Shown here: positions 33,422 to 36,786 of the stretch, piece after piece | How the letters are laid out: the number at the start of each line of letters is the position of its first letter | How positions within the stretch are numbered: the first letter of the stretch is position 1 | Assembly: GCA_018432315.1 (NCBI GenBank) | Contig: JAHDLB010000002.1 | Span: forward strand, 124,001 to 188,000 | Reading direction: 5' to 3' | Origin: Anaerolineae bacterium | GTDB taxonomy: Bacteria > Chloroflexota > Anaerolineae > Aggregatilineales > Aggregatilineaceae | Length of the DNA: 64,000 nt | Translations under genes and position numbers: made by a program | Notes under the pieces: generated by a model | What the model was told of the DNA's origin: nothing | The model's database searches: none | What the model saw: the letters and a program-made list of their open reading frames with translations, nothing else

Positions 33422-33820
33422 CTACCGTTCCCACTCGTCGATATCGGGATGGAAATCAACCTGGTAGTCGGGTATGCCGAGCGCGATGCCGTAGCGTCGC
33501 GCTTCGTCGTACTGGGCCTGGCTGGTACGGTCGATGAGGAAGATCTGGTCTGGGAAGATGATGTAATGGTGGGTCGCGTTCTTGAAGTCGGCGTACCACG
33601 CGCCGCCGTGTGCGCGGTCAAGCGACTGGCCGATTTCCTCGGCGATGCGCCGCGCCTCGCCTTCGGGAATCTCGACGGTGTGCAGCGTCCACTGTGACAG
33701 CCAGGGTGTCCGGTGCGCTTCCACCACTTTCTCGACCCTGGTCGCGGTGATCTTTACCCTGGCGAGGACAGCTTTGTCCTCAAGGGATTCCTCGATGATG
33801 ACGCCCTCGTAGTCGTTCAT
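33422..33820 (-). CDS. Hypothetical protein
   Basis: 132 residues from the ATG at 33820, five bases after AAGGTGG; an upstream GTG in frame is less favoured. The sequence is charged and has no signal or membrane segment. YHYIIFPDQIFLIDRTSQAQ-like hydrophobic beta stretches and a Tyr-rich C-terminus (GIPDYQVDFHPDIDEWER) are visible. I do not recognise the family. It ends one base after the M1 gene, so the two are convergent. Confidence 0.55.
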   Translation of the reverse strand: MNDYEGVIIEESLEDKAVLARVKITATRVEKVVEAHRTPWLSQWTLHTVEIPEGEARRIAEEIGQSLDRAHGGAWYADFKNATHHYIIFPDQIFLIDRTSQAQYDEARRYGIALGIPDYQVDFHPDIDEWER

Positions 33821-33898
33821 GTTCGCCACCTTTCCGGCCCCTCTCTTGAGCGAGCCTGCCTGGGGTCACCCTCACAGTCGAGCGATGCTGATGGAGAA

Positions 33899-33982: not shown

Positions 33983-34012
33983 TTGAACCCCCGCGCCGCA
34001 ATTCTGTATACT
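33983..34012 (+). promoter_or_regulatory. Promoter of the Rieske-like gene
   Basis: TTGAAC (33983-33988), 18 bases, TATACT (34007-34012). An AGAGGAGG ribosome site lies just before the ATG at 34072. Confidence 0.7.
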
Positions 34013-34071: not shown

Positions 34072-34407
34072 ATGGCCGCCGCGTTGGAAGGATACGTCTT
34101 CGCGTGCCCGGTTGCGGACGTGCCGGTTCGCGGCAAGAAAACGGTCCACGTCGGCGAGACGCGCGTGCTGATCGTGGCGTGCGAGTCGGGCATGTATGCG
34201 ATCGAGGACCGCTGCCCGCAAACGGGCCGCCCTATCGCCCACGGCAAAGTGATCGACTGCGTGATCACGTCGCCGGCTACCGGCGCCGAATATGACCTGC
34301 GGACAGGCCAGTATATCGGTGGCGGCCTGTCGCCCCTCCAGTCCGAGCGCCTGCGCACGTTTCCGTTGAAGGTAGACGGCAGCAAGGTCTACCTTCTCGT
34401 CGCCTGA
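34072..34407 (+). CDS. Rieske-fold protein with degenerate cluster site
   Basis: 111 residues matching a small Rieske [2Fe-2S] ferredoxin in overall layout: strand-rich start, [16 protein letters not shown], then [13 protein letters not shown]. The cluster box C-x-H...C-x-x-H is broken. The first box reads CPQ instead of CPH, and the second reads SPAT instead of CPxH, so Cys becomes Ser and His becomes Thr. Only the first Cys remains, plus a displaced Cys at DCVIT. The codons are clear (CAA, TCG, ACC), so this is not a frameshift. It has its own promoter and terminator and seems to be maintained. A redox role is doubtful. Confidence 0.8.
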
Positions 34408-34430: not shown

Positions 34431-34464
34431 AAGGCCCGCGCCCCACCCCGGCGCGGGCCTTTTT
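34431..34464 (+). terminator. Intrinsic terminator after the Rieske-like gene
   Basis: A perfect 12-base-pair stem, 34431-34442 with 34450-34461, with a seven-base loop and TTTTT following. One of the clearest terminators in the window. Confidence 0.93.
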
Positions 34465-34532: not shown

Positions 34533-36032
34533 ATGATGGCGAAGTATATTTTGGCGCTGGACCAGGGCACGACCAGCTCGCGCGCGATCCTGTTCGACGA
34601 AACCGGCCAGCCGGTGGTCATCGAGCAGCAGGAATTCGAGCAGATTTTCCCCCGGCCCGGCTGGGTCGAGCACGATCCGCGCGACATCTGGCGCTCGCAG
34701 CGCGACGTGGCCCGCGCCGTGCTCGACCGGCAGGGCGTCAGCGCGTCGGACGTGGCGGCGATCGGCATCACCAACCAGCGCGAGACAACCCTGATCTGGG
34801 ATCGCGCGACGGGCGAGCCGGTCTACAATGCGATCGTGTGGCAGTGCCGGCGTACGGCAGCCATGTGCGACGCCCTGCGCGCCGAAGGCTTCGACCAGAC
34901 GATCCGCGAGCGGACCGGGCTGGTGACCGACGCGTATTTCTCCGGCACGAAAGTCGCCTGGCTGCTGGATAACGTGCCGGGCGTGCGCGCGCGTGCCGAG
35001 GCGGGCGAGCTGGCCTTCGGGACGGTCGATAGCTGGCTGATGTGGAACCTGAGCGGGGGCGCGCTGCACCTCACCGACGTGACCAACGCCAGCCGGACCA
35101 TGCTCTACAACATCTACACCGGCGACTGGGACGACACGATCCTGGCGCGGCTCGACATCCCGCGCAGCCTGCTGCCCCAGGTCCGGCCTTCGAGCGAGGT
35201 GTACGGCGAAGCGGTGTCGCACCTGTTCGGCGCGGCGATCCCGCTGGCGGGCATCGCGGGCGACCAGCAGGCGGCGACGTTCGGGCAGGCGTGCCTGTCG
35301 CCGGGCATGGCGAAGAACACCTACGGGACCGGCAGCTTCGTGGTGATGAACACCGGCGAGCAGGCCAAACGATCCGACGCGGGCCTGCTGACGACCATCG
35401 CCTGGCAGCTCGACGACAGCCCGGTGATCTACGCGCTGGAGGGCAGCATCTTCGTCACCGGGGCGGCGGTACAGTGGCTGCGCGACGGGCTGAAGATCAT
35501 CGACGACGCGGCGGACATCGAGCCGCTGGCGGCCAGCGTCGAGAGCGCGGATGGCGTGTATTTCGTCCCGGCGTTCGTGGGCCTGGGCGCGCCGCACTGG
35601 GACGCCTACGCGCGCGGCACGCTGGTCGGCCTGACGCGCGGCACGACAGGGGCGCACATCGCGCGCGCCACGCTGGACGCAATCGCGCTCCAGTCCCGCG
35701 ACGTGCTGGAGGCTATGCGCCACGACTCCGGCATCGCGCTCAGCGCGCTGCGCGTAGACGGCGGCGCGGCCCGCAACAACATGCTGATGCAGATCCAGGC
35801 GGACGTGCTCGGCGTGCCGGTCCAGCGCCCGGCGGTCACCGAGACGACGGCGCTCGGCGCGGCCTACCTGGCCGGGCTGGCGGTCGGCTTCTGGCGCGAC
35901 ACGGACGCGCTGGCCGACCAGTGGACCATCGAGCGCACCTTCGAGCCGCGCATGTCCGACACCGAGCGCGACGCGCTGATCGCCGGGTGGCAGCGGGCCA
36001 TCGAGCGCGCCAAAGCCTGGGAACAGGCCTGA
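34533..36032 (+). CDS. glpK: Glycerol kinase
   Basis: 499 residues, the normal family length. It phosphorylates glycerol to sn-glycerol 3-phosphate in the cytoplasm. The FGGY-kinase signatures are intact: the N-terminal phosphate loop [23 protein letters not shown], the glycerol-binding WQCRR, and [13 protein letters not shown]-terminal [15 protein letters not shown] and [14 protein letters not shown] form the nucleotide site. Start chosen at the first of two ATGs (34533, 34536), with AAAGGCGG upstream. No glpF or glpD is adjacent. Confidence 0.96.
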
Positions 36033-36084: not shown

Positions 36085-36786
36085 ATGCAGCCCTATCGCG
36101 TTCCCCCCAACAGCCCTTACCCGCGCTGCGTCGATGGCCGGGCCGCGGAAGCCTTCGTCGAATGGCAGGCCGGGCGGTGGATCGTCAGCCAGCGCGGCGC
36201 GGCGGCTCGCGCCGAAAACGGCCCTCAATTTCCCGGCGCGTCGCTGCTCTTCGTGCGCGCGCTGGAGGTCGCCGGCGGGCGCGACCGCGAGTCGGCCTTC
36301 TACCTGACCGAGCAAGCATCCTGGCGTGCCGGGCTGGGCCTGCAAATCCACGTCGACGATCACCGGGGCGAGTACGACTTCGCCGCGCTCGACGACCGGG
36401 CGCTGATCGACGCGCTCGCCGGGCACCATAGCGGCTGCGGCTTCGCGGCGGCGGCGTGGGGCGACGAGGCGGAGGCCGTCGTGGCCGAGGCGAAGCGGCG
36501 TCACTGGCGGGTCCAATGCCTGGCCGGGCCGCAGGCCGGGCGCGGCGCGACGCTCAATTACCGGCCCGGCGAGACGTTCGACACCGCCGCCGCCGTCGCC
36601 GGGGGCGCGCCGGTCTTCAACCTGGACGTGCTCCCCGCGCGCCGCATGTTGGAGATCCTCGAGTCGCTGGGCGCGCTGCGCGGCTTTGCTGCCGACGCCG
36701 AGGCGTGGATGGCGAGCGCCTTCCGCGACGTGGTGACCCTGCTCGGCGGCGTGGCGTCGCCGGACGAGGTGCGCGAGCTGCGCTGA
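36085..36786 (+). CDS. Hypothetical protein
   Basis: 233 residues, cytoplasmic, with no membrane segment. A GAGAGGA ribosome site precedes the ATG at a normal distance. The N-terminal half has short beta-like stretches (GRWIVSQRG, LGLQIHVDDHRGEYDF). A central alanine-rich segment contains HHSGCGFAAAAW. No motif allows a functional call. It follows glpK by 52 bases with no terminator seen, so the two may be co-transcribed. The next gene is 38 bases away. Confidence 0.6.
   Translation: MQPYRVPPNSPYPRCVDGRAAEAFVEWQAGRWIVSQRGAAARAENGPQFPGASLLFVRALEVAGGRDRESAFYLTEQASWRAGLGLQIHVDDHRGEYDFAALDDRALIDALAGHHSGCGFAAAAWGDEAEAVVAEAKRRHWRVQCLAGPQAGRGATLNYRPGETFDTAAAVAGGAPVFNLDVLPARRMLEILESLGALRGFAADAEAWMASAFRDVVTLLGGVASPDEVRELR

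Follow-up and report, generated by a model that had tools for sequence, protein, structure and literature searches.

The window analysed here is a stretch of 64,000 nucleotides from an Anaerolineae bacterium (contig JAHDLB010000002.1). Its forward strand carries a gene that runs from ATG to TGA and encodes a Rieske-like protein of 111 amino acids (Table 1). This protein passed the Pfam gathering threshold for Rieske_2 (PF13806; 46.4 bits, cut-off 27, 4e-12) and also matched the Pfam model Rieske (29.3 bits, cut-off 20.3). Since no N-terminal extension precedes the domain in the window protein, we infer that it is cytosolic. The original prediction had assigned the gene its own promoter and terminator, and signal-like sites of both kinds are present in the window. 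The promoter-like site matches at 9 of 12 positions (chance expectation 0.1). The hairpin resembling a terminator consists of 12 pairs with a T run, and its pattern class has a chance expectation of 0.6. In the relatives, a simple script revealed a patchy occurrence of both: 3 of 14 have a terminator-like and 5 of 14 a promoter-like site.

Downstream lie the gene of a glycerol kinase, glpK, and that of a 233-aa protein matching no Pfam or NCBIfam family. The latter protein has about 50% identity to its counterparts in three relatives and contains the conserved motifs P-R-C-V-D-(G/S)-R and G-C-G-(F/Y)-A. On the other side, a 135-aa ORF (33422-33829, minus strand), also with no Pfam or NCBIfam match, is oriented divergently from the Rieske-like gene; it was not found beside this gene in the relatives.

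Table 1. Features at the locus of the Rieske-like gene (positions in the window).
Feature	Positions	Strand	Basis
Sigma-70-type promoter-like site (TTGAAC, 18 nt, TATACT)	33983..34012	+	Pattern match only
Cluster-less Rieske-fold protein, 111 aa	34072..34407	+	Pfam, ortholog alignment, structure model
Former ligand box 1, residues 47-60, R-C-P-Q-T-G...H-G-K-V	34210..34251	+	Ortholog alignment
Former ligand box 2, residues 66-73, T-S-P-A-T-G-A-E	34267..34290	+	Ortholog alignment
Family-specific loop, residues 81-97, consensus Y-x-GGG-x-SPLQSHWLTVF	34312..34362	+	Ortholog alignment
Intrinsic-terminator-like hairpin, between Rieske-like gene and glpK	34431..34461	+	Pattern match
Glycerol kinase GlpK, downstream of the Rieske-like gene in the window and six relatives	34533..36032	+	Neighbourhood comparison
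233-aa protein, no Pfam/NCBIfam family, after glpK also in G011, G015, G016	36085..36786	+	Neighbourhood comparison

The ligand boxes of the window protein read C-P-Q and S-P-A-T, where C-x-H and C-P-x-H are expected. In an alignment with ordinary Rieske proteins, Cys48 alone of the four cluster ligands is kept, and Gln50, Ser67 and Thr70 occupy the other three positions. Together with the Pfam matches, this alignment confirmed the claim of a Rieske fold lacking three of its four ligands. Comparison with close homologues, the check proposed along with that claim, revealed that the loss is conserved: the set C-x-H plus C-x-x-H is missing in all 15 orthologs. The position of the first histidine is Gln throughout, that of the second cysteine is Ser, Thr or Ala, and that of the second histidine is Thr, Val, Asn or Gly. 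G014, G001 and G008 also have Asp in place of Cys48, so that none of the four ligands is left in these three genomes. The sequence around these positions is strongly conserved; P-Q-T-G of box 1 is invariant, and box 2 follows the pattern [S/T/A]-P-x-[T/V/N/G]-G-A with invariant Thr66, Pro68, Gly71 and Ala72. All 44 other Rieske proteins in the alignment, including paralogs from the same genomes, read C-H-C-H, and the five further Rieske proteins of the window's genome have intact ligands. No homologue with all ligands was found within the orthologous clade. A strain-specific mutation or a sequencing error is ruled out by the occurrence of the same changes across 15 separate genomes. Based on these sequences, the Rieske-like protein almost certainly binds no Rieske cluster.

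The remainder of the fold, predicted to be intact, is indeed so according to the Pfam scores above cut-off and to an AlphaFold2 model built from 11 orthologs, which shows a confident Rieske fold (mean pLDDT 86.6, pTM 0.78). The best structural matches of this model were Rieske ferredoxins (2qpz, Z 17.3; 1fqt, Z 16.1), with NirD structures next behind (3c0d, Z 15.3; 4aiv, 14.7; 2jo6, 13.5).

Among 101 related genomes searched, 14 besides the window's own contained orthologs, which are 55-66% identical and come without exception from the same taxonomic family. In a profile search, the protein was present in 15 of the 18 genomes covered from this family, each time with more than 160 bits, while the next class of matches reached at most 56 bits. 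When 396 genomes were sampled from the class and 400 from the phylum, no ortholog turned up beyond the family; the best match there had 65 bits, and the best of these matches that were aligned carry C-H-C-H. In a tree of 59 sequences, the 15 orthologs form one side of a branch with an SH-aLRT support of 96, which favours a single origin of the cluster-less clade; the tree, built on no more than 112 columns and containing several long branches, does not settle the placement of the sister lineage. As a candidate for a cluster-bearing sister, L027 was considered and rejected: it has the cysteines corresponding to Cys12, Cys37 and Cys63, but its very long branch makes the placement unreliable.

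Within the orthologs, mean column entropy was 0.74 in the former ligand loops and the family-specific loop compared to 1.11 elsewhere, a difference matched by only 2 of 101 circular shifts in a test that is only indicative, as the regions were picked after the alignment had been viewed. The family-specific loop is well conserved in the orthologs and does not align to most ordinary Chloroflexota Rieske ferredoxins. Because these regions are more conserved than the rest of the protein, the end that once carried the cluster probably still has some function.

The gene neighbourhood was compared among the relatives. In seven of them, a menaquinone-type ubiD-ubiA operon lies divergently upstream of the Rieske-like gene. 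An NMT1/SsuA-type ABC transporter (binding protein, ATPase and permease) is located inside the ubiD-ubiA-ubiE-ubiX cluster at L039:3388-6101, L102:5061-8007 and L046-L050. We infer an ancestral order in which a menaquinone-type operon, encoding a UbiD-like decarboxylase (TIGR03701), a UbiA-like prenyltransferase, an NMT1-type ABC transporter, UbiE and UbiX, pointed away from the Rieske-like gene and glpK; several genomes have the 233-aa gene after glpK. Such a recurrent arrangement would fit a protein that serves as accessory subunit of one neighbour only, either glycerol kinase or the divergent UbiD-like menaquinone decarboxylase pathway, and several genomes depart from it. The window retains the glpK side, and the ubiD operon of the same genome is found on a different contig. 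In G007, a decayed copy with stops and frame changes (L098:6379-6504 on G007:C2, minus strand) lies between intact glpK and divergent ubiD. In G005, about 170 bp separate glpK from the divergent ubiD next to it (L108, G005:C24), and the Rieske-like gene is absent there and has no room. In G009, an intact Rieske-like gene is followed by a glpK remnant of several short pieces (L046:7341-7648, C10), and a full-length glpK is present on contig C47. In view of these arrangements, the gene order looks inherited, and neither GlpK nor a product of the menaquinone pathway looks like an obligate partner. The weakened accessory-subunit explanation is therefore regarded as unlikely.

Two further explanations concern the protein itself. 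If it were a decaying relic of a Rieske ferredoxin, the decayed copy in G007 and the lack of the gene in G005 and in G012, an incomplete genome in which it was not found, would be expected. Against this, the frames are open in 15 genomes, conservation in the former ligand loops is among the highest in the protein, and dN/dS was 0.07-0.16 in five close ortholog pairs. Because of this purifying selection, the gene is not decaying in the orthologous clade, as had been suspected from the window alone, and the exceptions are the decayed G007 copy and the clean absence in G005. Decay is thereby ruled out as the cause of the ligand loss, and a relic has next to no probability. The protein might also hold a metal or an alternative cluster by other conserved residues, namely Cys12, Cys37 and Cys63 and perhaps Cys48 or Glu45, and thus still be a redox or metal protein. 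The invariance of the three non-ligand cysteines in all 15 orthologs speaks for such a site. However, Cys12 also occurs in the biphenyl and carbazole dioxygenase ferredoxins, which have full ligand sets, Cys63 is found in many ordinary Chloroflexota ferredoxins, and L027 has all three. As they are shared with Rieske proteins bearing the full ligand set, these cysteines look like inherited packing residues. Also, three genomes lack Cys48 and none of the histidines is invariant, and we consider a metal site very unlikely.

The explanation we prefer, and think likely to be correct, is that the orthologs constitute a new, lineage-restricted family of cluster-less Rieske proteins, retained as cytosolic proteins whose old tip is now a binding face. 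Rieske ferredoxins use the tip to dock to their electron partner. The [2Fe-2S] ligands of a Rieske ferredoxin-like protein would have disappeared, most likely in a single event, when the ancestor of one Chloroflexota (Anaerolineae-like) family lived. Afterwards, the protein would have persisted in the cytosol in a stable form with a Rieske fold and no cluster, and its conserved tip may now bind a protein or a small molecule, in the manner of cluster-less NirD. From the conservation and this analogy, the protein probably has a binding role. Of the original prediction, the ligand loss thus holds in 15 of 15 orthologs, and the non-redox binding domain is the best-supported reading of it, still at the level of interpretation. 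Two observations weigh against the preferred explanation: the gene is dispensable, being decayed in G007 and absent from the ancestral locus in G005, and the invariance of the three cysteines leaves room for an unusual metal or redox role. A more specific proposal is that repurposing took place a single time, within one Chloroflexota family, and turned a Rieske ferredoxin into a self-standing protein with a binding or regulatory instead of a redox function, which has a partner of its own and no relation to nitrite reductase. In our estimation, this proposal has an even chance of being right. If true, it would add to NirD an independent example of a Rieske fold retained for something besides electron transfer. 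The family shows that this fold can persist without its cluster outside NirBD. In annotation, a domain match alone would mislabel the protein as a 2Fe-2S ferredoxin. In the literature collection searched, there was no paper on this family and little on cluster-less Rieske proteins.

Among known systems, NirD, the small subunit of the NADH-dependent nitrite reductase NirBD (PDB 2jo6, 2jza, 4aiv and 3c0d), has the same fold (Z 12-15) and a similar size. The E. coli NirD sequence used as query matched 2jo6 over its whole length. The PDB sequences of NirD from E. coli, Erwinia, Mycobacterium and Vibrio have the boxes D-P-x and S-P-x-x, in which both prolines are kept, and their changes from C to D and from C to S are the same as in the orthologs of G001, G014 and G008. 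The orthologs match these boxes in part, which would bear on function and not on membership, with S/T-P in box 2 of 14 of the 15 (A-P in one) and D-P in box 1 of three. NirD of Bacillus bataviensis has also been reported with substituted ligands (PMC3475470). Membership in NirD is ruled out, since the window protein failed the curated model TIGR02378 (31.3 bits, cut-off 74.65) and the window's genome contains no NirB above cut-off (best TIGR02374 match 177.8 versus 578.35 bits, model positions 2-293 of 794). Box spacing in the Rieske-like family follows that of ordinary ferredoxins, whereas it is longer in NirD. Because the protein lies below the NirD cut-off, NirB is missing and the sequence is nearer to cluster-bearing ferredoxins, the likeness of the boxes is best read as parallel change, and the ligand changes in the two groups were probably independent.

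The closest folds are those of the Rieske-type ferredoxins of aromatic-ring dioxygenases (BphF, 1fqt; CarAc, 1vck; naphthalene dioxygenase ferredoxin, 2qpz; Z 15-17). They also provide the closest PDB sequence matches (1fqt, 1.2e-7) and are likewise single-domain proteins of similar length. Unlike them, the Rieske-like protein lacks C-x-H and C-x-x-H, has the loop of residues 81-97 and adjoins no oxygenase gene. By eye, frames beside ordinary Rieske ferredoxin genes at L088 and L089 resemble cysteine desulfurases (SufS-like), which suggests a location of ordinary Rieske ferredoxin genes within suf-type operons in Chloroflexota. The ordinary Rieske ferredoxin paralogs of the same genomes (e.g. 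L003, L072-L083) share the domain and a similar length with the Rieske-like protein, but all keep C-H-C-H, are at most about 37% identical to it and branch separately in the tree. Genomes with both kinds of paralog, ordinary and cluster-less, offer a natural contrast set for studying the role of the Rieske tip outside electron transfer.
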